The position numbers and the translations under genes were made by a program. From NCBI GenBank assembly GCA_903813345.2, contig CAIIXF020000006.1:14822348-14886347 (forward strand): 64,000 bases of DNA. The letters are read 5' to 3'. Below are positions 5,898 to 50,943 of the stretch, in pieces. Under the pieces are notes generated by a model. That model worked only from the letters and a program-made list of their open reading frames with translations, did not search any database and had not been told where the DNA came from. Origin of the DNA: Owenia fusiformis. Lineage: Eukaryota > Annelida > Polychaeta > Sabellida > Oweniidae. Positions within the stretch are counted from its first letter, which is position 1. Each line of letters starts with the position of its first letter.

Positions 5898-8698
5898 CGT
5901 GTGATATTTTCATCGGTAAAATTTAAGGCTTTATTTTGAAAGTAGATTGTATTCAACTATACGATGAGTAGAAAGACACTTTGATTGATGTATATAAATT
6001 CATTGACTGATTGTGTTACGTGGTAAACACGATACAAATATATATATTCCGCAGCGAATATGGCAAATTCACTTGCCATGTATGACAGATTCACCTGCGG
6101 TATATGGCATACACACTGACCAATTAGAACGGAAATACGCAATTGTCAATTACATCGATTCAATGAACGGGGTAAAGTCTATAAATTATTATAATGATTA
6201 CTGAATCAACATGTCAGTGCATTGAATATATCAACTAATACAATTGAATAACATACACCAGTGGTACCTGTATTGTTTGATGTTATTTTATGTACTGTAT
6301 GTGTTACACGCAAAACACACTTCAAGGGAAACATTATTACGCATAAGTAATCGAACCTACGTTCGTGAAGCTTATACTGCCTTTTATAACCAAACCAACA
6401 GTTGACAAAAAAGCCAGATAAAAACCTAAAAAATCACGAGTGTTTAAAGTTGTATTGGCAATCACGATTTACACATTTCTGATACTTTCAGGATTATCAT
6501 TCAGCAATTACACGTAGTAAACGTACTTAATCATTATTAGCACTCGAAGCGCTAACTATATTTACTTAGGGACCCAGCCTGAATATTTTTGTTTTTGAAT
6601 ATTGGAGAGTATTACGCGAGATTTTTTCATTTTCTTGTTGGAAAATATATTTATTTTATGATGTGGGGTGATATCTAGAGTTTGAGGCTTGCGAAAATAA
6701 GATATCCTCACCTTTATACCCCCACCCTATAATTTCAGGGGGGTCAGAAGAAAATAAACTTTAATTCATAACTTTGGAAGTAAATGAGATACAAACTTCA
6801 TTTTTTCACCATAATTTATAGAATAACATCAGTAATGCAGAAAAAATATATCAAACGAAAATAAGCTAATTTGCATAATTTAACCCTTAAACCGCCATAA
6901 AAACTATTAAATAACGGAATGATAATAAACAACTTTTATTGTAATTGCCTTCATATGAAGTTATAACTTATGAAATAATTCCTAAAAATGCATCTATATA
7001 TGTATATTAGATGTGCAAAATATTAAAAGTGTATCTTACATAACGACTGTGAAAAATATTTCTCCCCTTACCCTAAAATTGAAGGGAGGGGGTCAAAAGA
7101 AAATAAACTTTAATTCATAACTTTGGAATTATATAAGATACAAACTTAATTTTTTCACCAAAATTTACAAAATAATATCAGTAATGGAGAAAAAAATATT
7201 TTGAACAAAAATAAGCTAATTTGCATAATTTGACCCTTAAACCGCCATAAAAACTATTAAATGACAAAATGATAATATACGACATTTACTGTAATTACCT
7301 TCATATGAAGTTATAACTGATGAAATAATTCCTAAAAATGCATCTATATATGTATAATAGATGTGAAAAATATTAAAAGTGCATCTTATATATAGATTGT
7401 GAAAAAATTTCTCCCCCTACCCAGATATTTCAGGGGGGTCAACTGAAAATGGACTTTAATTTATAACTTTGGAAGTATATGAGGTATAAACCTATTTGTT
7501 CACCAGAATTTATGTAATAACATCAGTAATTCAGAAAAAACATTTTTGATAAGCAAATAAGCTAATTTGCATAATTTAACCCTTATACAGTCATAAAAAC
7601 CGTTAAATGACAAAACGATAAAATACGACATTTATTTTAATCGACCTCTCATGAAGTTATAACTTATGAAATAATTCATATAGTTGCATTTATATATGTA
7701 TAACAGATGTGCAAAATATTTAAAGTGTATCTTACATAACGACTGTGAAAAAAATTCTCCCCCTATCCATATTTTTGAGGGGAGGGGGTCAAATAAAAAT
7801 GGACTTTAATTCATAATTTTAAAAGTATATGAGGTACAAACTTAATTTTTTCACCAAAGTTTATGTAATAACATCAGTAATTCAGAAAAAGATATTTTTG
7901 ATACGCAAATAAGCTAATCTGCATAATTTAACCCTTATACAGTCATAAAAACTGTTAAATGACGATGCGATAAAATACGACATTTACTCTAATTGACCTC
8001 TCATGAAGTTTTAACAAATAAAGTAATTCCTAAAAATGCATCTATATATGTATAACAGATGTGCAAAATATTAAAAGTGTATCTTACATAACGACGCTGA
8101 AAAAAATTGTCCCCCTACCCAGATATTTATTTATTTATCAAATGGAAATGGACTTTAATTCATAACTTTGGAAGTATATGAGGTACAAACTTAATTTTTC
8201 ACCAATATTTATGTTATATCATCAGTAATTCAGAAAAAATATTTTTTGATATGCAAATTAGCTTATTTAACCCTTATAAAGTAATAAAAACCGTTAAATG
8301 ACGAAGTGATAAAATATGGCATTTACTTTAATTGACTTCTTATGAAGTTATAACTTCGAGAAAAAATTTACAACAGATATGCAAAATATAAAGAGGTTAT
8401 TTTATATAATGAGTGTGAAAAGAATCTTACACCCTACCTTAATAATTTTGAGGGCTCGGGGGGGGGGGGGGGGGTTAAAGAAAATAATAGACTTTAAAGC
8501 ATAACTTTGAAATAATTTAAGAAAGAGCTTATATTTCTTTGCTGAAAATTGAGAAATCACATCAATAATGAAACGAATATTACATGGGGACAATACTATA
8601 TTTCAACTAATTTGCATAATTTAAGCTTCAAACAGTCATGAGAATCATTATAAGGCAAAGTGGTTCTATAGTTTTTCCCAACTATTTCAATGCCCATG

Positions 8699-9009: not shown

Positions 9010-10328
9010 CTGACCATACCAACCTTGGGGAAGGTAAAATAATAACTAATATTTTATAAGAATCACACTTTTAACGATTATTTGCATCAGTGCGGTAGCC
9101 TGGTATCTTATAAATAATAATTAATGAAGCTACACATTCATAAAATTTCCCTATGGCATATGGCACCTTCTTGGCTTCAAATGAAACGAGCATCATGGAT
9201 CCCCCATACCTTTATTTATTATAATCTAACTTTTGTGATTACATTCCGGTTTGATTCGTTGACAACATAATGATATACTTCATGATTTAACTACTATATG
9301 TACGGGTATTTGAGTATCACCTGTGGTGCCACCTATTATTAATAATATGTGTACACATAATGATTAAATGATGAATAAATTGAGTTTAATTGAACTTGCA
9401 ATGTTTCAGAATAACCCTTAAAAGGTAACCATAACAATTCTAAAGTTTATTGAACCATATTCAGAGTCACTGTGGGGACTGGTGTCATATTCTAGGTTGT
9501 AGGTACCTGATGCAGTGAAAATGTCATCATATATGTTTGGTTAAATCTACTTATTCCCGTCCACACTCACTTTCCTTTGAGCCGCATGAACATGAAGCAA
9601 AACATTCTGTACCTGCAGTGGCACATGAGCAAGTGGTTTAACATATTGCTTTGTCCTTGTATCGTTTGCATGTGCAAAATGACTTTGGGATTTTTGTTAT
9701 ATCAAGTTTCGGTTTTTTGGTCATTTTAATGGTCTCAAGAGTAATATGAACCACTTGACATCCAAATCCATTCCCTGGCTCTGGAATCTCAAAAATTGGT
9801 TTGTCAGCATTCATTGAAATGTATAATTGTTATAAACCAAAAATGCATCCATAGTTAATGGTAATGCTCTAATATCATTTTGGATGCTGCAAACAAGTGT
9901 AATACATCCAATGATAGTTTGAATGAAATATAAACAAAAATAACGCAACTCCCCTAGACCAGAGATCGTGCCCATGTGGACAGTCAATGGAGACAGAAAC
10001 TCACTTTAAAGTAGAATGTCATATGTTTGAAAATGAACAATTAAGTCTGTTTGCCTAAATGACTGATATCCATAGTGACTTTTACATGTATACAAGTCTT
10101 GGAAAATATTGTATAATAATGAATGAAAAAAACTGTTCAAATGACACTTGGAAAATGTATGATAAATATGTGAGTCAAAAGGCGTGAAATAGTTACATGC
10201 GATGGTCTCTAATAGGTCGGCATCAACCAGGAATTGTTTTAATTCATGTATGTATCTTAATGTAACATCTTTAGTGTGTTAGACTTTAATTAATAAATTT
10301 ACTATTACTACTAGTATAATATTGTTTC
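9010..10328. other. Foldback-element spacer, otherwise unannotated
   Basis: AT-rich DNA between the LINE relic and the right arm. I see no open frame of note, no tandem repeat and no RNA gene. Confidence 0.4.
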
Positions 10329-11635
10329 CATGTAATATTTGTTTCATTCTTGATGTGATTTCTCAATATTCTGGCGAAGAAATATATGTATAAGCTCTTT
10401 CTTATACGATTTCAAAGTTATGAATCAAAGTTTGTTTTTTTTCTTTTAACTTCCCCCAACCCTAAAATATTAGGGTAGGGTGTGAGATTTTTTCACACTC
10501 ATTATATACAATACCCTTTTTATATTGTGCATACCCGTTGTAAATGTATTTCTAGGAATTATTTCACAAGTTATAACTTCATAGAAGTCAATTAAAGTAA
10601 ATTTCGTATTTCATCACTTTGTCATTTTATGAATTAAAGTCCATTTCCATTTGATAAATAAATAAATATCTGGGTAGGGGGACAATTTTTTTTCAGCGTC
10701 GTTATGTAAGATACACTTTTAATATTTTGCACATCTGTTATACATATATAGATGCATTTTTAGGAATTACTTTATTTGTTAAAACTTCATGAGAGGTCAA
10801 TTAGAGTAAATGTCGTATTTTATCGCATCGTCATTTAACAGTTTTTATGACTGTATAAGGGTTAAATTATGCAGATTAGCTTATTTGCGTATCAAAAATA
10901 TTTTTTCTGAATTACTGATGTTATTACATAAACTTTGGTGAAAAAATTAAGTTTGTACCTCATATACTTTTAAAATTATGAATTAAAGTCCATTTTTATT
11001 TGACCCCCTCCCCTCAAAAATCTGGATAGGGGGAGAATTTTTTTCACAGTCTTTATGTAAGATACACTTCTAATATTTTGCACATTTATTATACATATAT
11101 AGATGCATATTTAGGAATTATTTCATAAGTTATAACTTCATATGAAGGTAATTACAGTAAATGTGATATAACATCATTTCGTCATTTACTAGTTTTTATG
11201 GCAGTTTAAGGGTTAAATTATGCAAATTAGCTTTTTTTCATTCAAAATATTTTTTCTTCATTGCTGATGTTATTTCATAAATTTTGGTGAAAAAATTAAG
11301 TTTGTATCTCATATACTTCCAAAGTTATGAATTAAAGTCTATTTTCTTCTGACCCCCCTAAAATTATAGGGCGGGGGGTATAAAGATGAAGATATCTTAT
11401 TTTCGCAAGTCTCAAACTCTAGATATCACCCCACATCATAAAAGTAACTTATTTTCCAACAAGAACTGAAAAAATCTCGCGTAATACTTTCCAATATCCA
11501 TTTTCACTTTCTAGCTGTTTCTCAGAACTTGGGTCCCTGAGTAATTGGTAATCCAGCGTAGTTGTACATTTAGAATAGATTCTTTTGACCAATCAAATCG
11601 AGCCTTTCTGTATCGCGTTTCCACCTACTGTATGT

Positions 11636-14551: not shown

Positions 14552-15658
14552 TAGTACCCCACACACAATTTGTCGTCTACTTTGATGTGTTGTAGAAAAA
14601 TATCCAATAAGAGTTTTCTCATGAAATTTGGCATACATTAAATTGAAACAATTTGTGACACTCAAATTTTTTTTGTTTGGGGTCATCTGACTTCAACACA
14701 ATTTGACTTCGGTTTCTAAATTGCTACGCATTTACAGATTTGACCTAAATTAAGCTAAATTTTGAAACAATTTGTAACAAATTGATTACAAAAAAATTTG
14801 AATATTCTGGTCAATCCTATCCTATTAAACACCATTATAATCCATTGGTAAAAGAAAAACTGAACCAAGCAGGAGTGACTGTTATACTGTTACAATGTTA
14901 TGATGTTACCCCTAAAAGTTCACATGTTTAATCCATGTGAATCATTTCCAACAAAAGGTAAGCCGTCGGTGGCCACCTGTGAGGTATTGGGTGAATATTC
15001 CTCCCGATCGTAGGCCAACGAAAAATTGAGTTCAACCTCACTGTTAACAATGCATTAATTGAATTAAACAAAATACAACCATTTTCTTGAGATTTTATGA
15101 GATGCCAGCTACTGGAAAGGATTTTTTAATCGAGTGAGACAGTAGGAAATGCTGTAGTGGTAGGATGGGATAGAAATCCAAGCAGGGATATGTTTCAGTG
15201 CCCTGATAAACCTTTATAGACTTAAAGCCAACAAACCATGATATATGCACCCGTCCATGTATTGAAAGTATTAAAAGGGTCGTCACTCTTAAATAATAAT
15301 AAAACCACACTTACCATATTCCTGTTTAGGAGTTAAACATCTCCAACACATAGTAACAATATCTTAAGAGAACAGACAAACCAAATATAATGCAATAAGT
15401 TTGTAATCAAAATGTAATCAAAATGATTTAAACTCTCTTTAAAACTGCAAAACTGGAAATTTTCGTCAACTTTTGTTAAAACATGAATATTTTAAAATTG
15501 CTTGATTTTCGTCAATATTACTTAAATTTCCAAACAAAAAAATTTGAGTGTCACAAAATATTTCAAGTTTAAGTATGCCAAATTTCATAAGCAAACTCTT
15601 TTTGGATATTTTTCTACAATACACTAAAGTAGACGACAAAATTGTGTATGGGGTACTA
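14552..15658. mobile_element. Inverted-repeat element, arms of about 123 bp
   Basis: Left arm 14552-14674 and right arm 15536-15658 are inverted copies with scattered mismatches: TAGTACCCCACACACAATTT against TAGTACCCCATACACAATTT, running on through TAGAAAAATATCC and TTTGTGACACTCAAATTTTT. About 860 bp of non-coding DNA lies between. Probably a MITE or foldback remnant; no clear target duplication. Confidence 0.65.
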
Positions 15659-22920: not shown

Positions 22921-25150
22921 AAAAATGTTTTTCTCTCAAATTGTGAAACACTAGCAATAGGGAATAATTACTTTGTATTTTCTACAGTGTTAGAATAGAA
23001 ACAAGGCAGTAACTTTCAATATTTTATGAATTTAATTTTTCAAAAAATGTCATTTATCTTTGGCACAGAAACCTTGCAAAAGAGTACTATTGAAAAAATC
23101 GAGCATCTTGTGACCAGCGATGCGTGACCGATAATCACTTAGGGCTGTTTCCAGGATCTTGTGGGTCTCTGGTACTCACAGGTCGTGATCATTAATCGAC
23201 AAACGTAGTATATGTAGAGTTCCAATGATTTATTTTCCGTTCCTCGTTCCTGACTCCAAGTGGCTAAGTTCGAGTTGCAGCCAAATATTTTCTAAGTCCG
23301 AAATATTGCCGAAATTTCCTAAGACCAAAAGTAGTGAATATTTTCTAAGTCCATTTTGTTTCAGTTTCCTTCCGTAGTTTAGTTAGCATTTGATTGATTC
23401 CAATTTCCGAATGAATTTACTGCAATTCGGCACTTGTTTATATACAGGTAGAGCTACATAGATCATTCTGTCAAAATATTGCTTATATTAGCTATAATTT
23501 GGGCTTAAATTACGCTTAGCTTGCAGATATTTGAAATTGTATTTAGATTTTGATTGGATAATAATAAACATCAATATTAAATTTTTGACACAAAATCGCG
23601 TTTTGTTACTATAAATAACTTTTCGCAGGTGAAACAGTACATTCTATTGTCATAAATCATTTAGGTTATGTTGAGTTCTAGACAGATGATCTTACATCAA
23701 AATAATTGCATTAGTCATACCTGTAGACACTTGGATTATTATTACATTAATTTATATAAATTATTAGTTGATTAATTAATTATAATTACCAATTAATCTG
23801 AAAAGCGGGTTGTAACAATATCATATGGTATCCAAAAACATTTCTTTGGGCTAGCGAGCTCGAGATTACGTTTAAAATTTATGCACAATGAGAAAATATG
23901 ACTAAAGAACATAGGAAAATATTTAATTAATAAGCCTTTTTATTCTCACTTTTCAACACGACGCACTGGCGTTTTGGCGTACATTGTTCCTACGCCACTG
24001 AAAAGCCTTCGACCAACGACCCCGACCCCGTACAAACAGTAGATCTACCAAGAATGCGATCTTCAATTTCAAGGTCCACATAAAGCAGAGCACAAGTTTT
24101 TTTACGTAATTCCACCCACGTCCATGTGAATATAACAAACCTTTTCCAACCGGTCAATTATGAGGGTGGAATTACCTTGAAAAAATTCGAGCACTGCTCT
24201 ATTTCTCCACTCGCGCACATAGATCCGTATTTTTTGTGGCAAAATTTAACAATTTCAAGATGTTTTTTGTGATAGTCTTGCTCAAACCCTTGTGACAAAA
24301 TTGTTAAAGTGAATAGTCCAGGGTCTTGAAGAAAGACTATTTGGTAATTTCTGTGCACTTTTAAAGTTTGCCCTCGTTATGGTTCCACACCGTGTTATTA
24401 GCATTTTGCAAATAATTGATGTATACTACTATTTAGGCGGTGTAAATCCCAAATGCCTTTCCCCACGCGATTGTACAGTACTAAAAACTCTTCGACCCTA
24501 CGACCTACTACGACTTACTGGGTGTCAAGAAATCTTTGGAATCGACCTTCGCTTTCTCAGTACAGTCCTGTTTTTCTAGTTTATACATGATTAGTATAAT
24601 TCCAACTTTAGTTTTCCTAAGGGTTTGTTTAATCCGCCCCTACCTCGGTGGATTTCCATCTACCCACCCAGCAATCAGGGTCTAATTTTAATTTATCTTG
24701 CAAGAAAATTCGAAGCAAATGCGTGACATATGCGCAATTCGTGTGAAAATCTCGAATGGACTGCGTTCGTTTTTTCGGCGTTTGTTTTTGATGTTCTTAT
24801 TGCTTGACAATAATCAGAAAATGCGTTTGCGTGACATATTCTGTCACGCAAAAACGGGCTTTACTTCAATTTCTTTAGAAATGCGTGACAAATACGCAAA
24901 TTGTGGGACAATTGGACGGCCTGAAACTATTTCAAGTTTATCATAATCCAACAGTAGGTTGCATGTTTGTATTTCAGACGTACATTGACGAGGGCATTGT
25001 TATATATCTTTTTTTATAAGAATCATCATTGCTCAAATAAATGTGGAGAGAGATAACTCTGTTTCATTTTATGTGCTGGTATTTTCTCTTACTGGGGCAA
25101 TCCGAGACACTTTGAGGCAAAATGGGACACCCTATATATGCACAAGTTAC
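22921..25150. other. Non-coding stretch with scattered short repeats
   Basis: AT-rich. The string AAAAAATCGAGCA/AAAAATTCGAGCACTGCTC occurs near 23093, 24180 and 26127, suggesting a dispersed repeat. GCGTGACAtAtkCG-like words recur at 24720-24900. No ORF has recognisable homology. Confidence 0.35.
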
Positions 25151-25976
25151 ACGCCCGGTGATCGTAGAATTGGGACGGAGGGGGGGGGGAGCAGGCAATT
25201 TCTGCTAGAAATTTCAACAAATCTGGAAGATTTATTTTTTAAAGAAAAAGTTTACTATTGAATTGCTAAATAAATAGGCTCACGGTATTGTAAAATATGT
25301 TAGGTATTCTAGGATTTTTTTCAACCGATACTCTTTTAGGGTATAAGATCTATTAAAAAAGGCGCAACGCACCAACGTGCAAAAGTCAATGTTGTTGCTA
25401 TAAATGAGGCAACAATGGTGTAAATGACCTGTAGTAAATACTTGTGAGTGACATTATCGTCACAAAATTAATGTTATTGCTGACTTTGTAAAATAAGTTT
25501 CCATAGGTGAAATAAAAAATAATCGAAAATAATTTTGGGACGGAGGGGGGAGCAATATGTATTAAGACATGATACATATTGTATTCTTAGTAAAAATTAT
25601 TTTCGATTATTTTTTATTTTACGTATTGAAACTTATTTTATAAATTCAGCAATGGCATTAATTTAGTTATGATATCGTCACTTACAAGTATTTAATACAG
25701 GTCGTGTAGACCATTGTTGCTTGATTTATAGCTAAAACGTTGATTTGTGTCTGTTGGTTGCCTCGCGCCTTTTTTAATAGATCTCATATCTTAGATGCCT
25801 ATCGTTTCAGAAAAAATCCCAGAAGACCTAACATATTTTACCATACCTTGCGCCTATCAATTCAGCAATTTTATAGTAAACTTTTTCTTGAAAAAATAAA
25901 TCTCTCAGATTTGTTGAATTTTCTTGCAGAAATTGCCTGCTCCCCCCTCCGTCCCATTTTCACGATCACCGGGCGT
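25151..25976. mobile_element. Foldback element, nearly full-length palindrome
   Basis: ACGCCCGGTGATCGT at the left is complementary to ACGATCACCGGGCGT at the right, and complementarity continues at moderate identity almost to the centre near 25570 (GGGACGGAGGGGGG, TTTTTTAATAGATCT-like, TTATTTTCGATTATTTTT blocks). Frames across it, 25740-26009 for example, are mirror images of non-coding DNA. Confidence 0.75.
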
Positions 25977-26588
25977 GAGTTATATAACCAGCATTTTCTC
26001 GAATATTAGTGATGCAAATCTCAAAATCAATCGACTCACTTAGGCGACAGGGGAAAAAATGATCAAAGGAAATGTGGAAAACAACATTTTCTAACCGATA
26101 GATTTTGTTGGTAGATTTACTACGAAAAAATCGAGCACTGCTCAAGATTCTTTTATCGTAATATTAAGGATTTGAAAGAAAACGGTGATGTAGGTTTTAA
26201 AAATTTTACTTGAGGAATATGATGCAGTATTTCATGTTAATATAATTTCTTAGTTAAAACAGAATCAGGATTGTATGTTGTCAACTTACGTTAACACGTT
26301 GATAGTCAGATCAAAATTCACATTCAAGTAAACAGCGAACCGTATGTTATAATATACATGTAATTAACAAAATATATTTGATGATAAGATTATAATTATA
26401 GTTAGACATTCAAATATTTTTACCGTCATATTATGTCCCCTACTTACAAGTAATCCACAAGATTGTCTTCAATATTATTATCTTAATTTTGCCATTCTCT
26501 TTTATTTTCCATAACCTGACATTGGCCTGGCCCCTTTCTAGGAGCGATCATAATGGATCATCTTGGCACCTTGGATTTATTTAAGCAT
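25977..26588. other. AT-rich non-coding stretch
   Basis: Nothing recognised except the AAAAAATCGAGCACTGCTC word at about 26127. Confidence 0.4.
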
Positions 26589-26593
26589 AATAT

Positions 26594-27839
26594 CACGATG
26601 CCCATGTCAAGCAGCGTCCCTACTAGGCACGCAGTTTGAAACTCTGACAAACTGCGCGCATATTTCAAAATGTGAGACGGGGAGGACACGACTCCCAAAA
26701 AGAGCCAAAATACGAAAAATACAAGGTTAGTCTCGTTCTAAAGATAGTACCATTCTGTGAAGATAAACTTAATTTACTCATAGCTAGTACTCCATGTTTT
26801 TCCCGATGTAAACCTAGTTATCTCAATATAAGGGTCTTAAGTAACTTCTGTGTTCAAAATTTACAGTGTAAAGTTATATCTATGTCTTTTTATCGTCATT
26901 TGCCGTTTATTCAGCCATTGTGTCTGTGTATGGTAGAATATGATAGGATCCCTCCATCTGATTAAATCAGCAAAGTTTGTGTTCAAAACGATAATACGCC
27001 ATAAACGTGATTTAAACATTTTTCTTGTCAAACTGCGCGCCTATATTCACATGTATTTCCCAAACTGCGTGCCTATCCAAGCTTGTTTTGTATTATTAGA
27101 AAACATAAGCGCCATACAAGGCACATATGTGTCTAATAGTATAACCCCATAATTGAAACACTATGAGAGTCCATCCACCAAGATGGTGATCTGAAAATAA
27201 AAGTTTTTTTCGTTCCCAACTTAATTGTCACTTCTATTATACATTTTGACTTTCATTATGAAAATCTCATAAAATCTGACGATAAAGCAAAATTTCCAAA
27301 GCTACATGAAAAACACCTACACGTGCCTCTGTAGAAATTCCAATGATAATATGTAGTTTTAATAGTGTATGCACACAGTTTGTAATTTGTGGCTAAAATA
27401 GGCGCGCAGTTTGTGATTTATTTCTTTTTAATCTCCTGATTATCTGTTTTATCTCGAAATATTTTGAATTATACATGATAAATGTGTAAGGAATTAAATA
27501 TAAAACGAGTCTAAAGTATTTGTCATTTATGTTTAAAGTGCTAGATCGATTTACGTATATACATTCCCGTTAAATCAGTGACGAAAATGCCATTAATATG
27601 CTTATGTTTTAAAACTTAGATTCATTTGCACATAGTTTTTGCTAGTATTTGCAAGATTCGTATATTCGCCACAGAATGAACGCATTGAACAAGAAAACAA
27701 TGCAGGATAAATGTCACATTACGTTTCAAAATACAGACTCCAACTTAAATGATGCAATGTTCTCAGGTACGCATACGCAGTTTGTGATCGAAACAAACTG
27801 CGCGCCTAAGTAGGCGCGCAGCTTGACATGGGCACCGTG
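26594..27839. mobile_element. Transib/RAG-like-ended non-autonomous transposon
   Basis: The termini are CACGATGCCCATGTCAAGC (left) and, inverted, CACGGTGCCCATGTCAAGC, 18/19 identical. An exact 5-bp duplication, AATAT, flanks them (26589-26593 and 27840-27844). The subterminal word CAAACTGCGCGCCTA recurs in both orientations (about 26647, 27029, 27059, 27400, 27777, 27795, 27811). A CACNRTG heptamer with 5-bp duplications is shared by Transib and RAG-related transposons; clustered subterminal repeats are also common in CACTA elements, whose TSD is usually 3 bp. No transposase is encoded, so the assignment rests on ends alone. Confidence 0.65.
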
Positions 27840-27844
27840 AATAT

Positions 27845-28204
27845 GAGACTTATATAAACGACTTTTGCCAAGTTTGACCATATAAGCAGTTTGAATCTCA
27901 TTCTCTGGGTTCCTCCATTGCAAACCTCCTTGAATATAATCAACATTTTCCAATCGGTCAACAAGAAATTAAACATGATTTCTCATCATGTTCTTTAAAT
28001 AAATCTTTTAAAACATACCACAGTTTTTGCTTCAGAGTGCATCTAAAGTGTACAGCCGTATATTTTATCACCGTACGCCACTTGTCGATGGTTATGCGTG
28101 GATGTGAAATCGTGGTTCGAGTGTTCACTGTTAGTGTTAACTCATATAGTCTATAGCCCATATATAAAAGAATTTTAATATAGGAAAATATTAACTGCTA
28201 TATC
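27845..28204. other. AT-rich non-coding stretch
   Basis: No supported feature. Minus-strand frames at 27726-28161 read through the transposon end and have no homology I recognise. Confidence 0.4.
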
Positions 28205-34055: not shown

Positions 34056-34708
34056 ATAATATTGATAATCACATTTATGCGTGCGCGCGCAGCTCATCCA
34101 CTGAACGAAACGCGACTTCCCGCTGAAATCACCGGGTATTGATTTTTCCCTTGATATGACATCTAAAGAGTCAATAAAAGATATATAATCAAAGAACCAT
34201 TTTGATGTTTAAAAAATACTATGGTCAATCCCACTTTATTGAAAAACTTAAGTTGTTAAAACTGAAAATTTTCTTTTGTTCTTGCCGAAAATGCTTTACA
34301 GGTTTCCTCCCCCTGAGATTTGAAATCAAATTGAGAGCCCCACATCTTAGTGTACTTAGGATACTAAAAATTATTTAGATGTAATTTAGAAAATAGGTAC
34401 TACTTACTGAGCAAATTGCATGCCTTTTTGAGTATGAGTAATAAAACAACAATGAAACTATATTTTTAGTGTGTATAGTTTCATGTGTAATGCAGTTAGG
34501 TATCATGGTTTACCGGGAACTTATATATTCAAAGTTGTAAACATTGATGTTTGTGAAAGGAGGGAGGGATACATCAAATTTTTAAAAATAGAATACTCTT
34601 TTACATAAACAGAAATTATCTGTTATGTTTTTCTCTTATCGTTTGTTAATTGTTTTCTTTAACATTTTCTATTTCTTTGCTATTTTTCAGGTAAAATCTG
34701 GTGTCAAA
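34056..34708 (+). other. 5' region and probable intron end before TRMT10C start
   Basis: A pyrimidine-rich tract from about 34626 runs into TTTTTCAG at 34683-34690, a convincing 3' splice site 18 bp before the chosen ATG. The 28 extra codons that stay open upstream of that ATG would therefore be intron. The 5' UTR exon was not located. Confidence 0.5.
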
Positions 34709-35694
34709 ATGTTGCGATCGATATTTCCAAGGATAAGAGAAATGGTATTTGAATCGTTAACAAAGACAACTACTTATAATACCAATTGTGGATTTAGTAC
34801 AGGATTTGCTAAAAAGAAGATGATAGCTATGTCCAATGTGGCAACAAAAATTGATTTAGAACGTGGAAATAAGCTAGACATAGAAGATGAAGCTACCTTA
34901 AGGATTCAAAACCTTACAACTGATGAACAAGAAAAATTCAAACGTGTTCAAGTAGAGTATGATGTAGCGCAGTCTCTGAGCTTTAAAGTGCCTCGGGAAA
35001 TGACTAACTCCATGTGGGTAAAAGTCTTGAAGGGAGATACGCAAAGTCGGAGAAAGAGATTGTTTAGCTATTTATGCCAGATTGAGTCAGAACGGAATAA
35101 AAGAATAGAGAAGAAACAAAAGAGACAGGAGCATCTTGAGCTGCAGAGACAAATACGTGCCGAGGCAGGGGAACCCGATGAGATAATTAGCAGGCTTCAC
35201 ATCAAAATTCACCGTAGCTATATGTCAAGGTACTGGAACAATGGACTGGTACGAGCCTTGATGTTTGGCCAACCAATTGTCTTCGACATGGGATTCACTG
35301 AATATATGACGGAGAAAGAGAACATCGGTGCAGTTGAACAAATAGCCATGGCATATGGTCAGAATAAGATGAATTATGAACCATTTAACATTCATTTCTG
35401 TAACTGTGCACCTGATTCCAAATCATCTCTTTGGTTGAATGATAAATTAAAAAACGAATTTATTCAACAACCTTTATGCGAAATAACCAGTAAAAGTTAC
35501 CTGGATATTTTTCCTAAAGAAAAGCTGGTGTACCTATCGCCAAATGCCCCCCATGTTCTTAAGGAATTTGACAGTGATGCTGTATATATCATTGGTGGCT
35601 TAGTGGACCTCTCTGAATCCAAACCATTGACCATGGCGAAGGCTAAAGAGGAGAGAATTCAGATGGCTAAGCTCCCACTAGATAATTACTTACA
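34709..35694 (+). CDS. TRMT10C: TRMT10C/MRPP1, coding exon 1
   Basis: Mitochondrial tRNA methyltransferase 10C, which methylates purine 9 of mitochondrial tRNAs and, with the dehydrogenase subunit MRPP2, forms the platform for protein-only RNase P. The ATG at 34709 follows a 3' splice site and opens a basic, acid-poor presequence (MLRSIFPRIREM) as expected for matrix import. A basic helical linker (about 122-158: RKRLFSYLCQIESERNKRIE) precedes the SPOUT fold, with FGQPIVFDMGF (about 200-210), PFNIHFCNC, LVYLSPNAPHVL and DAVYIIGGLVD, then the LPLDNYLQ block. The exon ends at CA|GTAAGT, splitting a Gln codon (phase 2). The joined protein is 415 residues; human MRPP1 has 403. Confidence 0.92.
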
Positions 35695-36283
35695 GTAAGT
35701 AGGACCATTGTTTGTGTATGACTAATAGTGTCTGTCCTGCATATATGTCTGGAAGAATGTTCATGTGAGCTCATTTATAAATGAAATTAGTTACAACCCT
35801 AGTTTAGTTTAATAAAATGCATGCGCGTAACCAGGCAAGTGCGAGAGTATGCAGTTGCGCACCCTAATTGATGGAGCAAAAAATAAATTGTTGTTAACAC
35901 CATTAGTCTTTCTGGCTTTTATGCAAGACTTTTTAAGAATCTTAATCAGATAATTACTGTTTTACCATATCACCAATATTATACTTTGTATACAGAGATT
36001 GGGGGATTCATTTCTCCATAGCCCATCTTCTCTGTTCCTTTGCCTATGTGTATTTTGGGAAGTTAGTTATGTCAAATGTTTTGGGGATTTAGATAAGATT
36101 TTGGGAAGTTTATATATTGAGTGTTATACTGCCTTTACAAATGATAAATGTTATTTCATTTTATTTGTCTGCATGTTTTGCATATTATATCCATTGTCAG
36201 AATCTAATCTAAAAAGCTACAATACTTGCGCAAACAATAGAGAGCAAAATCCTTACATGAAATATGCATTTTTGTGATTTTAG
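35695..36283 (+). other. Intron of TRMT10C
   Basis: 589 bp from the GTAAGT donor to the TTTTAG acceptor at 36278-36283. The phase agrees: CA plus A makes Gln, followed by FRKGHKSLTLDQ, as in other TRMT10C proteins at this point. The frame at 35999-36277 is intronic and not coding. Confidence 0.9.
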
Positions 36284-36545
36284 ATTTAGAAAGGGTCATA
36301 AATCGCTGACCCTTGACCAAATGATGAAGATCATGCTAGAGTTACGTGATACAAGAGACTGGATGAAAGCTTTTCGTCACGTCCCACAGAGAAAGCTGGA
36401 CAGGCAAACAAACGAGACAATAGAAATGTTACGGGACAGACATGTCCCAAGTAGAAGACCTCAAAAGGAAAGAGGTGCCACTAGTGGGAAACCTCAAAAA
36501 GAAAGAGGCAGTACTATTGAAATGCTACTCAACCAACTTGATTGA
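36284..36545 (+). CDS. TRMT10C: TRMT10C/MRPP1, coding exon 2 (C-terminus)
   Basis: Encodes the last 86 residues. GHKSLTLDQMMKIMLELRDT is the conserved C-terminal helix of the SPOUT domain, followed by WMKAFRHVPQRK. The tail carries a small internal duplication, PQKERGAT and PQKERGST, 12 residues apart, not in the vertebrate proteins as I know them. A possible poly(A) signal, AATAAA, is at 36749-36754. Overlapping frames at 36442-36753 are shadows. Confidence 0.9.
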
Positions 36546-36754: not shown

Positions 36755-37635
36755 AAACAGGCAACTGTTCATGCTAAATTGCCAAATTAATATGTTGTGC
36801 CAAAAAATAGTCAATGGTTGCACAATATTACAACAAATTGATTAGAAGAGCTTTATTTTTTCGGAGAATGAATTTTAAAAAATAGTTACCAATCTTGCAT
36901 CAGATATCTGGGTTCTTCTTCTGACAACAATGTGATGCTCGTTACATCTTCTGTTTCTTTGACTAGCAGTAGCAACATCTCTTGATTAAGCAACACGAAA
37001 GCATGGTTTATCACAATTCCATGACATTATCCATCCCAATTGTGAAATAGGTTAGGTTAACATGGACTTGATGTAAGATGTATAACAATGGCCATTTTGA
37101 AAGACTTGGAGGGACCTCTTGCTAGCTAAGATGTTTTTGTTTACTGTTGGATACATTTTAGTTTCTATGAAAGGAAAGTATTCTCAGCAAATATAGCCTA
37201 GACTAAGAATGAGAAAAAAATATGGATCACGTATGTGAAATTGCAGTTTCTTCTAAATCCTCAAATAAACTTTGATACAGGAATTATAGTTTGTATAATA
37301 ATATTTTTGAAATTCAACTTTCCCTTGGTATATCAATGTCAAATCATAATTTCTGTTTCAGAAAGTAAGGAAGGATTTAAATCAATGCATTCTCACTTTT
37401 GCAGCGACACTAGAGCCTCTCTCACATTTGCTCTATGGCGGACGTAGCTTCACAAAATCAATATAGAAAATCTACAGCGCACAACTTATCCATATAGTGT
37501 ATGCTGCATATTTCTCTTGATTTTGGGAAGCTATGCCGCCATACAGTTGCCATTGATCAAATGTGACCAAGGCATTAGTTTTCAACTTAGTGTAATGCTG
37601 TCATTTACATTGTAAATGCACATATACACTGTATA
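36755..37635. other. Non-coding stretch
   Basis: AT-rich. CACATTTGCTCTATGGCGG (37420) and its inverted near-match around 37530-37577 may be a decayed copy of the small MITE seen at 52214. No gene supported. Confidence 0.4.
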
Positions 37636-38278
37636 CAGGGTGTCCCGAAAGTATGGGGCCCCCCCTAGGCAGACATATTCCAGTGTCCTCATAGTATGTG
37701 TCATATATCATTTTAAAGCTTGTCCAAAGTTACATTGATTTGCCAAGTATCATGGTTTAACTCCCAAATGGGAAAAAGTTACAGGCATTTTAAAAGTTAG
37801 TGTTTTGTCAAAATAAAGTTCAGTTTTACACCACATTATTAGTCAATGTGTCCCCCCTTGGCCATGTTAACATTGGCAATTATTTTCCGATATGACCTTA
37901 AAACCCCTTCAAATAGGAGTGTGGAATTTTATAACCCTCTTAAAACCTGTTAAGGGACTTTAGAAGAGTTTCCTTAGAGTTTCTACCCTCACCGTTCTCT
38001 TTTTCCAACTCAATATCCATCCGACACGAAAAGAATTGCTGCTGTTAAGATGGCCTAGAAGGACACATAGACTAGTGATTTGGCGTAAAATTGAACTTAA
38101 TTTTGACCAAACACTAAATTTTGAAATGCCTATAATTTTTTCACATTTGAGAGTTGAACCATGATACTTGGTGAATCAATGTAACTTTGGATAAGCTTTA
38201 AAATGATATATGACACATACTATGACGACACTGGTATATGTCTGCCTAGGGGGGGCCCCATACTTTCGGGACACCCTG
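37636..38278. mobile_element. Tc1/mariner-type MITE with TIRs of about 200 bp
   Basis: Begins CAGGGTGTCCCGAAAGTATG and ends with its complement, each flanked by TA (37634-37635 and 38279-38280). The arms pair for about 200 bp on each side (blocks CCTAGGCAGACATAT, TGACACATA-like, TTTTAAAGCTT, ACCATGATACTTGG). The roughly 240-bp middle is non-coding. The TA duplication and CAGGGTG end fit a mariner/IS630 derivative. Confidence 0.88.
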
Positions 38279-38280
38279 TA

Positions 38281-39859: not shown

Positions 39860-42215
39860 TTTAGCTCACATGGTGAGCTTTTGCAATCACTCACTTGTCC
39901 GTCTGTCTGTCCGTCCGTCTGTCCGTACGTCCGTCCGTCTGTCCGTCAACAATAGTGGCACGTTTTTAAACCTCTATCGATAGGATTCCTGTTTTAAGTT
40001 ATTTCTGTTCAACATCAATACAGAAAACCCCCCTATGACTCCTGGTTCAAAAGCTTGGCTATTTTCAAAATGGCCGTCACTTTTGTCTCGCGAAATTCAC
40101 TTTTAGCCCATTTCCTAGCTAACCTCTGTCGATAGGATTCCTGTTTTAAGTTATTTCTGTTCAACATCAATACAGAAAACCCCCCTATGACTCCTGGTTC
40201 AAAAGCTCGCCTATTTTCAAAATGGCGGTCACTTTTGTCTCGCGAAATTCACTTTTGGCCCATTTCCTAGCTTTACAAATAATTTCAGGTGTCCTACATT
40301 GTAAAAATCCATGTCAATGTAAAGATTAGATATATGAAATAATTTTGTTACAAAAAATCAGCGAAAAATTGTATCCATTTTTTTTATTTTCAGCCATTTT
40401 AGTTAACATTGATTTGTCTATCTGACTCGCGAAATCCACTTTCTGTCAATAACAGTGGCACGTTTTAAAACCTCTGTCGATAGGATTCCTGTTTTAAGTT
40501 ATTTCTGTTCAACATGAATTCAGAAAACTCCCCTATGACTCCTGGTTCAAAAGCTCGCCTATTTTCAAAATGGCCGCCATTTTTGTCTCGCGAAATTCAC
40601 TTTTGACCCATTTCCTAGCTTTACAAATAATTTCAAGTGTCCTACATTTTAGAAATCCATTGCAAAGTAAAGAGTAGATGTATGAAATAATTTTGTTACG
40701 AAAAATCAGCGAAAAATTATATCCATTTATTTATTATCAGCCATTTTCGTTAACATTGATTTGTCAATCTGTCTCGCAAAATTCACTTTTGGATCATTTA
40801 CCTTAAACCCTCTGTCGATAGGATTCCCATTTTAAGTTATTTTTGTTCAACATCAATACAAAAAACTCTCCTATGACTCTTGGTTCAAAAGCTCGGCTAT
40901 TTTCAAAATGGCCGTCACTTTTGTCTCGCGAAATTCACTTTTGACCCATTTCCTAGCTTTACAAATAATTTCAGGTGTCCTACATTGTAAAAATCCATGT
41001 CAATGTAAAGGGTAGATATATGAAATAATTTTGTTACAAAAAATCAGCGAAAAATTGTATCCATTTTTTTATTTTCAGCCATTTTAGTTAACATTGATTT
41101 GTCTATCTGACTCGCGAAATCCACTTTCTGTCAATAACAGTGGCACGTTTTAAAACCTCTGTCGATAGGATTCCTGTTTTAAGTTATTTCTGTTCAACAT
41201 CAATTCAGAAAACTCCCCTATGACTCCTGGTTCAAAAGCTCGCCTATTTTCAAAATGGCCGCCATTTTTGTCTCGCGAAATTCACTTTTGACCCATTTCC
41301 TAGCTTTGCAAATAATTTCAAGTGTCCTACATTGTAAAAATCCATGTCAATGTAAAGAGTAGATGTATGAAATAATTTTGTTACGAAAAATCAGCGAAAA
41401 ATTATATCCATTTAATTATTTTCAGCCATTTTAGTTAACATTGATTTGTCCATCTGTCTCGCAAAATCCACTTTTGGACCATTTACCTTAAACCCTCTGT
41501 CAATAGGATTCCCATTTTAAGTTAATTTTGTTCAACATCAATACAAAAAACTCTCCTATGACTCTTGGTTCAAAAGCTCGCCTATTTTCAAAATAGTTGC
41601 CATTCTTGTTTCGCGAAATTCACTTTTTGCCAAGTTCCTAGCTTTACAAATAATTTCAGCTGTCCTGCATTGTAAAAAGCCATGTCACTGTAAAAGGTAG
41701 TTGTATGAAATAATTTTGTTACAAAAAATCGACAAAATATTATGTCCGTTTCTTTATTTTCAGCCATTTTAGTTAACATTGATTTGTCCATCTGTCTCGC
41801 GAAATCCTCTTTTGGACCATTTGCTTAAAACCTCTGTCGATAGGATTCCAGTTTCAAGTTATTTTTGTTCAACATCAATACAAAAAACTCCCCTATGACT
41901 CCTGGTTCAAAAGCTTGCCTGATTTCAAAATGGTCGCCATTTTTCTCTCGCGAAATTCAATTTTGGCCCATTTCCTAGCTTTACAAATAATTTCAGGTGT
42001 CTTGCATTGCAAAAAGCCATGTCACTGTAAAGAGTAGTTGTATGAAATAATTTTGTTACAAATTATTGGCAAAAAATTATATCCGTTTTTTTTTCAGCCA
42101 TTTTAATTGACTGAGAGACAGATGGCTTGAAATAATTTTGTAACAAAAAATCAGCAAAAAATTATATCCGTTTTTTTCTGTTACCATGTGAGCCCAGTAC
42201 CCATGGTACTAATTT
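39860..42215. mobile_element. Pearl/Helentron-like element with 340-bp tandem units
   Basis: The left end is the palindrome AGCTCACATGGTGAGCT followed by GTCCGTCTGTCTGTCCGTCC; the right end is CCATGTGAGCCCAGTACCCA. Between them GATAGGATTCC marks units at about 39978, 40130, 40478, 40816, 41163, 41501 and 41838. The alternating 348/338 spacing and sequence variants show a dimeric (about 685-bp) higher-order pattern. Each unit contains TTCAAAATGGCCGCCATTTT or a variant. Palindromic end, CGTC microsatellite and tandem core are the layout of bivalve pearl elements. Non-coding. Confidence 0.8.
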
Positions 42216-42341: not shown

Positions 42342-43262
42342 ATCGTACCTAATAAAGGTACGATATTGTCGTCAGCTTGACGGGCGGGCGGGCGGCGTCT
42401 CACTTTTCAGCTTGTCTACAGGTTTCCAGCCAAACCATTTGACAGATTCATCTGAAATTTTCAGGAATGTTTCTACATATCAAAGTTAAGAACTGATTAG
42501 TTTTTGGGCATTCTGGGTAAATTTTAAGGTGGCCATTTTGGATTTTCCGTCCTAAAATCTTCACTTTCAAGACTTGTCTACAGGTTTCCAGCAAAACCAT
42601 TTGACGGATTCATCTGAAATTTTCAGGAATGTTTCTACGTATCAAAGTTAAGAACTGATTAGTTTTTGGGCATTCTGGGTAAATTTTAAGGTGGCCATTT
42701 TGGATTTTCTGTCCTTAAATCTTCACTTTCAAGACTTGTCTACAGGTTTCCAGCCAAACCATTTGACGGATTCATCTGAAATTTTCAGGGATGTTTCTAC
42801 GTATCAAAGTTAAGAACTGATTAGTTTTTTGGCATTCTGGGTAAAATTTAAGGTGGCCATTTTGGATTTTCCGTCCTAAAATCTTCACTTTCAAGACTTG
42901 TCTACAGGTTTCCAGCCAAACCATTTGACGGATTCATTTGCAATTTACAGGGATGTTTCTACATATCAAAGTTAACAACTGATTAGTTTTTGGGCATTCT
43001 GGGTAAATTTTAAGGTGGCCATTTTGGATTTTCCGTCCTAAAATCTTCACTTTCAAGACTTGTCTACAGGTTTCCAGTCAAACCATTTGATGGATTCATC
43101 TGAAATTTTCAGGGATGTTTCTACGTATCCAAGTTAAGAACTGATTAGTTTTTGGGCATTCTGGGTAAATTTTAAGGTGGCCATTTTGGATTTTCCGTCC
43201 TAAATTCTTCACTGTCACACTGCTGTGTTTTAGGTACGATATTGTTCACGTCTGTGCCTTGT
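42342..43262. mobile_element. Tandem-repeat element, five 162-bp units
   Basis: Starts with the palindrome ATCGTACCTAATAAAGGTACGAT-type hairpin (42342-42364) and GGGCGGGCGGGCGG; ends with a second copy of AGGTACGATATTGT (43232). CTTGTCTACAGG marks units at 42411, 42573, 42735, 42897 and 43059, exactly 162 bp apart. Each unit contains AAGGTGGCCATTTTGGATTT. A different family from its neighbour but of the same general build. Confidence 0.82.
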
Positions 43263-44015: not shown

Positions 44016-45355
44016 TTGTCTCCGAACTTAGGAAATATTGTTTTTTTATTGTTAGCCACTATTGTATTTTCCATCATAAAATCTGTATACACATTTCCAA
44101 GAGAACTGTTTGACGGATTGTTTTACAATATTCAGGGATGCTTTTTTATCCTAATTTTATGGTGTAAAAATCAGGTTTTCAGCTCTTTTTTGGTTATAAG
44201 TCAACAAGTTTTCCACCAATTTGCTTGAAATTATACAGGTACCTTAATTTATAGGCTATAAGTTTCGGCAAAACAAGTCACAAAGATTCAAAATGGCCAC
44301 CACTCTTATTGCAGAAAAATCAGGTTTTCAGCTTGTCTTTGGTCATAACTCCACAAGTGTTCCATTAATTTGCTTGAAATTAAAAAGGTACCTTTATTCT
44401 ATATTATCAACGATATCTACAAGTTTCGGCAAAATATGTCGCAAAAATGGCCACCACTCTTATTGCAGAAAAATCAGGTTTTTAGCTTGTTTTTGGTCAT
44501 AACTCCACAAGTGTTCCATTAATTTGCTTGAAATTAAAAAGGTACCTTTCTTCTATATTATCAACGATATCTACAAGTTTCGGCAAAATATGTCGCAAAA
44601 ATGGCCACCACTCTTATTGCAGAAAAATCAGGTTTTTAGCTTGTTTTTGGTCATAACTCCACAAGTGTTCCATTAATTTGCTTGAAATTAAAAAGGTACC
44701 TTTATTCTATATTATCAACGATATCTACAAGTTTCGGCAAAATATGTCGCAAAAATGGCCACCACTCTTATTGCAGAAAAATCAGGTTTTTAGCTTGTTT
44801 TTGGTCATAACTCCACAAGTATTCCATCAATTTGCTTAAAATTGTACAGATACATGTACCCTAATTTCTAAGTTATCAATAATGTCTACAAGCTTCAGCA
44901 AAATATGTCTCAAAGATTGAAAATGGCTGCCAATTTTATTGTAGAAAAATCAGGTTTTCAGCTTTTTTGTCATAACTTCACAATTATTTCATCATCAATT
45001 TGCTTGGAATTGTACATACAGGTACCTTAATTTATTTATAAGTTATCAATACTTTGTTTACAAGTTTAGGCAAAATATGTTGTAAATTTCAAAATGGCCG
45101 CCACTTTATTGCAAAAAAATCATGTATAAAGCTACCTTTTAGTGTGCTTGTGAAATTCCTCTGTTCCAACTTCATTACGGAAAATGGTATTTATTGGTCC
45201 AAGCTAATACCCATGTTTTTTTATTTTAGCTAGCCAGGTAGTTCGATAAAATTAGTATGTTTCATAATGTGCAAAAAACTTTGATTATTCTAAGCTCCTA
45301 CTGTAAACATTAAAAATATTGAAACATTCCCATGTGAGCGCAGTGCCTGTGGTAC
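44016..45355. mobile_element. Tandem-repeat element, 154-bp units
   Basis: CCACCACTCT marks units at 44297, 44451, 44605 and 44759, exactly 154 bp apart and almost identical, with more divergent units on either side. The right end CCATGTGAGCGCAGTGCC, then GGTACT, matches that of the 39860-42215 element, so the two share a terminus although their tandem units are unrelated. Each unit has GCAAAAATGGCCACCACTC. The left end was not identified. Confidence 0.75.
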
Positions 45356-48470: not shown

Positions 48471-48914
48471 TTCAGTGGGATTTGCTACTCCTTGGAGCTG
48501 CTGTTTTTCTAATTGGGATTTGCTTCTTCATGGAGTTGCTGTTTTCTAGTTAATATGTTTCTTCAGCTTATCCTTTTCAAATTTTGTAAAAGCTAAACCA
48601 GAAGAGACTTAAATACACTGGACAAAGTTCCTGGGGGTCCTTTCAAAATTTTAGCGAAGATGTAAATTGCCGTTTTTTCTATTTCGCCATATCAAAGGGG
48701 GTGCCAATATAACCCAATCTACAGTATGTCACTACCACAAGTGATGACATATTGTTACAGTCTCCAACTTGTTTTTGTGGATGTTGTTTTGCTGTCAGCA
48801 TCTGTAACAAATGGCATGTGGGGATATTTTGCATCCTAATGCCTTGTTTCAAAATATTCTGATAAAGCAACACTTTAAAAAAAAAACATATCCCATTGTA
48901 ACATAACTATAATT
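48471..48914. other. Non-coding stretch
   Basis: No supported feature. Confidence 0.4.
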
Positions 48915-48961
48915 ATCCCATCAAACGAAGTTCGGAGGGATATAGGGAACGCCTCCATCCG

Positions 48962-49537
48962 CTATACTTATACAGTTATGAATTTCAAGCCATTGAGAAA
49001 ATGTATAGGGAAGACTACTCCAAAGTACTAAAATATGCTAAAACTACAAGATTCATCGATGATTTATGTACTATAAACAACGATGGAGAAATGGAGACTG
49101 ATATGAAGAACATCTATCCTGAAGAACTAGTGTTAAACAAGGAAAATGAGAAGGATACAGAAACAACTTTTCTGGACATACAAATGAAAATAGTAAATAA
49201 ACAAATCACTACAAAACTATACGACAAAAGGGAAAACTTCAATTTCCAAATAGTCTCATATCCTGATTTATCTGGAAATATTCCTAGAAACCAGTCTTAT
49301 GGAATATTTATATCACAAATAATAAGGATTTCAAGAATCTGCAGTCAACTGGAAGATGCAACAAACAGAGTTACCAGCCTGGGAAATAAACTACAATGTC
49401 AAGGCTACAGGAGCAACATACTTAATTTGTATACTAAGAAAGCTATAACAAGAAATAAATGGATATGTACTAAATACAATATGCAGGAGAATATCATCAT
49501 GAAGCACTGGAAAATTAACGAGAGAAGAGAACATTAA
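48962..49537 (+). pseudogene. Reverse-transcriptase fragment, 5'-truncated
   Basis: In frame from LYLYSYEFQAIEKM, then RFIDDL (about residues 29-34), the F/YxDD catalytic box of reverse transcriptases, then TFLDIQ, TTKLYDKRENFNFQIV, PDLSGNIPRNQSYGIF and SQIIRISRICS. This order resembles the palm/thumb part of Penelope-like or related retroelement RTs, which have FLD and YDKR/YRK blocks after the YxDD; I am not sure of the class. The fingers region and any endonuclease are missing, so the copy is dead although its frame is open. Confidence 0.7.
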
Positions 49538-49900: not shown

Positions 49901-50943
49901 CGGGCAATAACTCAAATACCGTTGGCCCGATTTTATTCATATTTTGTATACATATACCCTATGGGGGTAGAAGTTCTGCTCGAAAGCCGATTTTCAAAAT
50001 GGCTGCTCATTTCAAAATGGTGGCCATTTTAGTGCCGATTTTACAGTAATTTAGTTGCAATATGTAAAACTGTAATAGCAATATGTTTCAAATGTAAAAT
50101 AAATTATATAGGACATTAATAAAGCTAGAAATGTAGATATTAAAAAAGCACATGGCAGCCATCTTGAAAAATGGCGGCCTTTTCTCGTTATTTTACGATT
50201 TTTGCTGTAACTTGAAAAGAAGTGGAGCGATTTTGTTCATATTTGGTATGTGAATACTATAAGCATGGCACACTGTCTAATGACACTTTTGGTAGAAGGT
50301 GGCCATTTTGAAAAATGGCGGACATTTTGAAAAATGGCCGCTATTTTAACTTATTTTACTAAAACTCGAAAAGTAGTGGAGCGATTTTGTTCATATTTGG
50401 TATGTGAATACGTAAAAGCATGGCACACTGTCTAATGACACTTTTGGTAGAGGGCGGTCATTTTTCAAAATGGCCGCCATTTTAACGTATTTTACTATAA
50501 CTCGAAAAGTAGTGGAGCGATTTTCTTCATATTCGGTATGTGAATACTGTAAGCATGGCACACTGTCTAATGACACTTTTGGTAGAAGGTGGCCATTTTG
50601 AAAAATGGTGGACATTTTGAAAAATGGCTGCCATTTTAACTTATTTTACTATAACTCGAAAAGTAGTGGAGCGATTTTGTTCATATTTGGTATGTGAATA
50701 CTATAAGCATGGCACACTGTCTAATGAGACTTTTAGTAGAAGGCGGCCATTTTTCAAAATGGCCACCATTTTAACGTATTTTACTATAACTCGAAAAGTA
50801 GTAGAGCGATTTTGTTCATATTTGGTATGTGAATATTATAAGCATGGCACACTGTCTAATGACACTTTTGGTAGAAGGTGCCCCTTTTGAAAAATGTTCG
50901 ATGGGATTCGCTACGCTTTGGCGTTGCCGTTGTTCTGGTTTCT

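Follow-up and report, generated by a model that had tools for sequence, protein, structure and literature searches.

Termini and target-site duplication

The locus described here raises the question to which group of DNA transposons an element of the annelid Owenia fusiformis belongs whose inverted ends start with CAC: A transposon group fitting these ends gave rise to antibody-gene recombination, and other common groups fit them too. The element (hereafter E1) is located in a stretch of 64,000 nt (contig CAIIXF020000006.1 of assembly GCA_903813345.2, positions 14,822,348 to 14,886,347 of the forward strand; hereafter the window, with positions counted from its first base). Based on the results presented below, E1 is very probably a non-autonomous cut-and-paste DNA transposon, whereas its superfamily can be named only tentatively, with Transib and hAT5 as the two foremost candidates (coordinates of all features of E1 and of a neighboring element, E2, are compiled in Table 1).

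The tips of E1 (CACGATGCCCATGTCAAGC, 26594-26612 on the plus strand, and CACGGTGCCCATGTCAAGC, 27839-27821 on the minus strand) are identical at 18 of 19 positions: Behind the heptamers CACGATG (left) and CACGGTG (right), the next 12 bases are the same in both ends, and the inverted identity extends to approximately 64 nt at 81% (59 bits). The boundaries, heptamers and identical 12-bp extension reported in an earlier sequence-only reading of this DNA were therewith reproduced exactly. The pentanucleotide AATAT is present on both sides of the element, and among the duplication lengths of 1 to 11 bp the length of 5 bp is the sole one that fits, in agreement with the perfect 5-bp duplication of that reading; an exact 5-bp flank match at the spacing of E1 is found at 125 of 62,730 window positions (0.2%). 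Among alternative boundaries (left, 26560-26611; right, 27821-27874), three combinations have a 5- to 6-bp duplication, with an end match of 2-4 of 12 bases as compared to 11 of 12 for E1 itself. The 12 bases following CACGRTG were considered against an arrangement of a 12- or 23-bp spacer and a nonamer; in E1 they belong to the continuous inverted repeat.

Table 1. Positions of E1, E2 and their component features in the window.
Feature	Position	Strand	Remarks
E1, non-autonomous DNA transposon (very probable)	26594..27839	.	1246 bp; inverted ends and exact 5-bp duplication; no transposase match in the open stretches searched
E1 left target-site duplication	26589..26593	+	AATAT; flank comparison
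E1 right target-site duplication	27840..27844	+	AATAT; flank comparison
E1 left terminal inverted repeat	26594..26656	+	starts CACGATGCCCATGTCAAGC; 81% over 64 nt versus right end
E1 right terminal inverted repeat	27776..27839	-	starts CACGGTGCCCATGTCAAGC on minus strand; inverted alignment with left end
Motif copy 1	26608..26622	+	15-29 from left end; 4 mismatches to CAAACTGCGCGCCTA
Motif copy 2	26624..26638	-	31-45 from left; 1 mismatch
Motif copy 3	26648..26662	+	55-69 from left; 1 mismatch
Motif copy 4 (inner)	27029..27043	+	436-450 from left; exact
Motif copy 5 (inner)	27061..27075	+	468-482 from left; 1 mismatch
Motif copy 6 (inner)	27368..27382	-	458-472 from right; 3 mismatches; mirrors copy 5
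Motif copy 7 (inner)	27399..27413	-	427-441 from right; exact; mirrors copy 4
Motif copy 8	27794..27808	+	32-46 from right; exact; mirrors copy 2
Motif copy 9	27811..27825	-	15-29 from right; 1 mismatch; mirrors copy 1
E2, second CAC-ended, nearly wholly palindromic element	25150..25977	.	828 bp; ends CACGCCCGGTGATCGT, 16/16
E2 left duplication	25145..25149	+	AGTTA
E2 right duplication	25978..25982	+	AGTTA

Repeated 15-bp word in E1

The ends of E1 are accompanied by a repeated word of 15 bp. Allowing up to 3 mismatches, 8 copies of CAAACTGCGCGCCTA in either orientation are present in the 64-kb window, all of them positioned within E1 (0.40 expected); at up to 4 mismatches the element contains 9 copies (shuffle mean 0.11; maximum of 2 in 300 shuffles). 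Each of the four copies on the right has a mirror counterpart among the five on the left, both in the distance from the respective tip (15/15, 31/32, 436/427 and 468/458) and in strand, while the mirror place of copy 3 retains only CAAACTGCG (27776, minus strand). When the four inner copies were placed independently in a simulation, the chance of such a mirrored layout amounted to 0.00024 (0.024%), at a tolerance of 10 bp that was chosen after the data had been seen. As single strands, the ends of E1 fold better than shuffles (z of -3.9 and -3.0), as the inverted orientation of the motif copies would lead one to expect; no conclusion was drawn from the folding.

The mirrored order is restricted to the words. 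With the motifs removed, the DNA between terminal and inner blocks revealed no inverted homology (256 of 500 shuffles and 109 of 500 random window stretches scored as high), so that the two arms share the words and their layout. If the motifs were included in a comparison of the E1 halves, 18 of 300 shuffles scored as high, and short exact words on the mirror diagonal were exceeded by one of 21 other bands. The interpretation of E1 as a long decayed palindrome of the E2 type was rejected, as the signal disappeared once the motifs were cut out. The simplest reading is that the words are putative binding sites maintained by selection for mobility. The sequence-only reading had proposed repeated words of E1 as transposase-binding sites: Their layout is indeed that expected of such sites, and the binding itself is deduced from it.

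A second CAC-ended element next to E1

E2 is situated 616 bp upstream of E1. Its arms are 82% identical, and among duplication lengths of 1 to 11 bp only 1 and 5 match; the right-end word GGGACGGAGGGGGGAGCA recurs within the element, and the left end has a longer G run. Beyond CACG nothing clear is common to E1 and E2 (best BLAST match of 20 nt, E 0.23).

The significance of the two elements was estimated by a scan of all CAC..GTG pairs of the window that are 80-8000 bp apart (47,864 pairs, after removal of another 1651 whose two ends both lay in tandem arrays). At a threshold of 13 or more matching end bases out of 16, 27 pairs remain, and among these an exact 5-bp duplication is confined to E1 and E2 (0.05 expected); the same holds for the 6 pairs with at least 15 of 16 (0.01 expected). 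A 2-bp duplication fits three of the 27 pairs, and duplications of 3 bp and of 4 bp fit one case each. Two elements of this kind at a distance of 616 bp suggest past activity of a 5-bp-duplicating transposase in this genome. The observed/expected ratio of CpG is 1.09 in E1 and 1.05 in E2, as compared to 0.67 in the window; if the host methylates CpG, these ratios fit insertions that are younger than the surrounding DNA.

As a separate observation, a stretch of 738 bp at 642-1379 with 16/16 inverted ends (CACAGGCAAATTACAT) is flanked by TGTG left and right, next to a TG run; it is a possible CAC-ended element with a 4-bp duplication.

Coding content and database searches

E1 contains 14 open stretches of 40 or more amino acids, and the 11 of them that were searched gave no Pfam match above cut-off; sub-threshold matches were obtained for CAC1F_C, DUF4597 and HTH_31 (best E 0.089, 13.6 bits versus a cut-off of 27). 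The longest open stretch of the element had no match in a PDB sequence search. Rfam likewise yielded no match, and a scan for bacterial promoters and terminators nothing informative. In the window, 34 open reading frames of at least 90 amino acids were compared with Pfam without a match to a transposase family; the genes with a Pfam match encode a sulfotransferase, GT11 and GT10 glycosyltransferases and a tRNA m1G methyltransferase.

The whole E1 had no match in phages and plasmids at a word size of 11. Sequence patterns were additionally searched in viral contigs: CAAACTGCGCGCCTA is present in 66 contigs, with a single copy in each; GCGCAGTTTG..CAAACTGCGC was found in 3 contigs, where the surroundings of the matches are unlike E1; CACGRTGCCCATGTCAAGC and TGTCAAGCTGCGCGCCTA gave no match, and CACNRTGCCCATGTCAAG gave 6, four of which are the same stretch in four contigs. 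The E2 patterns resulted in 7 single matches and in none, respectively, and the pattern searches of prokaryote genome contigs in 0 and 0. BLAST of E1 and E2 against all 82 loci retrieved produced no match above 23 nt (E of at least 0.04). Short words of E1 occur singly in literature on unrelated topics.

E1 as a very probable non-autonomous transposon

The inverted ends, the 5-bp duplication beside the CAC tips and the mirrored motif array are directly visible in E1, and a transposase was not recognized inside; the classification as a non-autonomous element in the sequence-only reading is therefore retained. Its mobilization would depend on a transposase supplied in trans: A DDE transposase from another locus of the genome would bind the CAC-starting ends together with the adjacent 15-bp word, pair both ends of the element and cut at CAC; the ends would then be joined to target strands 5 bp apart, and gap filling would leave AATAT on either side. 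At each end, the putative binding sites would be grouped into a terminal block (approximately 15-70 bp from the tip) and an inner one (approximately 430-480 bp), mirrored in position and strand.

Several results weigh against this interpretation. Both the boundaries and the duplication length of E1 depend on one insertion, as a single copy is present in the window, and a second copy was not found in viral, phage, plasmid and prokaryote collections; however, the latter are not meant to hold animal DNA, and missing copies therefore say little. The BLAST inverted alignment of the ends enters both flanks by 18-19 nt (67.1 versus 59 bits), and an inverted repeat that runs past CAC into the flanks would undo the duplication. 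In a control, 6.2% of 3000 random flank pairs scored as high; in consequence, the extension was taken as chance, and a continuing repeat was rejected. The chance of the mirrored layout rises to 0.0099 (0.99%) when each inner pair is treated as one 47-nt block, and the function of the motifs is read from their layout. Furthermore, if the threshold is lowered to 11 of 16 matching end bases, 559 CAC..GTG pairs qualify, and the 2 among them that carry an exact 5-bp duplication do not exceed chance (approximately 1.0 expected); only the well-matched pairs can therefore carry weight.

Taken to the extreme, these points would make E1 a chance inverted repeat with a chance 5-bp match and no transposon at all. 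Such a coincidence would be compatible with the single copy seen, with AT-rich flanks in which AATAT is no rare word, and with the weak inverted similarity that carries on into them, but it would have to account for an inverted repeat of 59 bits, for the mirrored array of nine motifs and for the fact that two of the six best-matched CAC..GTG pairs possess a 5-bp duplication where 0.01 are expected; it is considered extremely improbable, the least probable of all explanations discussed here.

Superfamily affiliation

Given that E1 is a cut-and-paste transposon, the family of its transposase has to be deduced from ends, duplication and motif layout. The elements of CACTA, Mirage, Chapaev, Transib and kin mostly have CA..TG ends and duplications of 2-5 bp (PMC12730594). 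Transib and hAT5 are about equally supported as superfamily of E1, each of them tentatively; the remainder is shared by an atypical relative of CACTA/Chapaev and an unclassified group with 5-bp duplications. Most likely, E1 is an ordinary addition to the known types of transposon.

According to the Transib interpretation, which is possible but held with reserve, E1 would be a non-autonomous element mobilized by a transposase of the RAG1-core type without RAG2. A 5-bp duplication as present in E1 has been described as typical of Transibs (PMC4411706). Both ends start with CAC and match CACNRTG; the left end agrees with the ProtoRAG heptamer CACTATG at 6 of 7 positions (5.4% of CAC starts equal that), the right end with the heptamer CACAGTG of the recombination signal sequence (RSS) also at 6 of 7 (equalled by 6.8%). 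The cross matches are weaker: The left end agrees with the RSS heptamer at 5 of 7 positions (30%) and the right end with that of ProtoRAG at 5 of 7 (33%). In the narrower Transib consensus, CACWATG, position 4 is W, whereas E1 has G at this position.

The CACNRTG heptamer, which the sequence-only reading had regarded as a sign of the family, is indeed present at both ends of E1. Since 3.8% of all 1302 CAC starts on both strands of the window show this heptamer, and the two ends of E1 are not independent of each other, it is weak evidence once CAC is given. Moreover, E2 combines a duplication of equal length with ends that lack RTG: Its CACGCCC does not fit CACNRTG and scores 3 of 7 on the ProtoRAG as well as on the RSS heptamer. 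In consequence, CAC together with a 5-bp duplication does not imply an RSS-like heptamer at this locus.

Further differences from Transib concern the target, the architecture and the abundance. RAG, Transib and ProtoRAG favor GC-rich duplications (PMC8289069), whereas AATAT contains no G or C in five positions and AGTTA of E2 a single G, although two insertions are too few to prove a bias. The ends of E1 comprise approximately 64 nt plus a second motif block approximately 430-480 bp in, in contrast to the terminal inverted repeats of 40-45 bp of four Drosophila Transibs (PMC10299278). In a survey of bivalves and other molluscs, a single Transib was listed among 14,275 DDE elements (PMC10294476), although the host of E1 is an annelid. 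A Transib transposase was not recognized in E1.

A related but more specific idea would place E1 and E2 as two families in one undescribed lineage, a side branch of Transib, which is CAC-ended and duplicates 5 bp, and whose ends include a second group of binding sites far inside the element (approximately 430-480 bp from the tips in E1); the transposase or a partner would then read a bipartite end much longer than the RAG signal sequence. This must be regarded as improbable, somewhat more so than the CACTA affiliation considered below.

The RAG1L-RAG2L (RAG-like, RAGL) transposons known from oysters are a far less probable source; indeed, a non-autonomous relative of this type is hardly to be expected here. 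CAC start and 5-bp duplication, both found in E1, are stated not to vary among protostome RAGL elements (oysters, ribbon worm), and non-autonomous RAGL elements have been reported from a pearl oyster (PMC7204232). However, the ends of E1 agree with the protostome consensus CACTWMCAAACKTYKBB of that source at only 6 and 5 of 17 positions, values that are equalled or exceeded by 97% and 99.7% of the CAC starts in the window; the conserved AAA at positions 8-10 is replaced by CCC, and neither RAG1L nor RAG2L was recognized inside. E2 reaches 9 and 10 of 17 (60% and 39% of CAC starts are equal or better). Accordingly, the Transib/RAG-like assignment of the sequence-only reading was upheld in one part: CAC ends and 5-bp duplication fit Transib, yet Transib is not favored over hAT5, and the RAGL end consensus failed.

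The ends of hAT elements usually start with CAG or TAG, and the CACG start of E1 is different from these. Examples of hAT-type ends in the literature read CAG(G/A)GG and TAGGGTG. Against this stands the fact that hAT5, the hAT branch to which E1 may belong with the same reserve as to Transib, is defined by the 5-bp duplication (PMC12730594; PMC9004415) that E1 exhibits. Subterminal repeats are known at hAT ends (PMC4763223), and hAT5 has been named in clusters of PIWI-interacting RNAs of the snail Lymnaea (PMC6128900). In the aforementioned survey of bivalves and molluscs, hAT was the second richest DDE superfamily and far commoner than Transib (PMC10294476).

With regard to the motif layout, E1 resembles CACTA/EnSpm elements (CMC group), which have CAC..GTG ends and subterminal units of 10-20 bp in both orientations (PMC8978399), just as E1 has CAC..GTG ends with nine 15-bp units, direct and inverted, behind them. 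That E1 is of the CACTA/EnSpm or Chapaev-like type, or an unclassified relative, and departs from the usual duplication length is nevertheless rather unlikely: CACTA duplications are 3 bp long (PMC8978399), 2 bp in some miniature inverted-repeat transposable elements (MITEs), whereas lengths of 2, 3 and 4 bp fail for both E1 and E2. Also, the tips of E1 (CACGA and CACGG) do not contain the CACTA motif.

The consequences depend on the type of enzyme. Should E1 and E2 go back to a Transib-type transposase, this animal would possess relatives of the RAG1 precursor enzyme that were mobile fairly recently; the ends of both elements could then show the origin of a bipartite signal. If hAT5 or a CACTA relative made them, one further non-autonomous family would be added. 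In either case, CAC ends and a 5-bp duplication are insufficient for calling an element RAG-like.

Other features of the window

Two further structures of the window have inverted repeats. The stretch at 37634-38280 (647 bp) has 254-nt inverted arms (89%), TACAGGGTGT..ACACCCTGTA, with TA at both tips and by eye looks like a MITE of the Tc1/mariner type, and the one at 14552-15658 comprises 1107 bp between inverted repeats of approximately 129 nt (89%) that start with TAGTACCCCA and is likewise a likely MITE.

The regions 6739-8356 and 10315-11500 comprise an array of tandem repeats of approximately 350 bp and, a few kb further on, related sequence in inverted orientation. Additional tandem arrays are located at 40084-42105, 42400-43217, 44290-45011 and 50200-50896 (periods of approximately 338, 162, 154 and 290 bp, respectively); some of them share AAAATGGCC.

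An open frame of 211 amino acids at 48902-49537 (plus strand) without Pfam match contains an RFIDDL motif and by eye resembles the remnant of a Penelope-type reverse transcriptase. At 34592-35698 (plus strand), an exon of a tRNA m1G methyltransferase was recognized by Pfam; together with the stretch at 36261-36545 (plus strand), for which Pfam gave no match, it probably represents, as judged by eye, a gene of the TRMT10 type.
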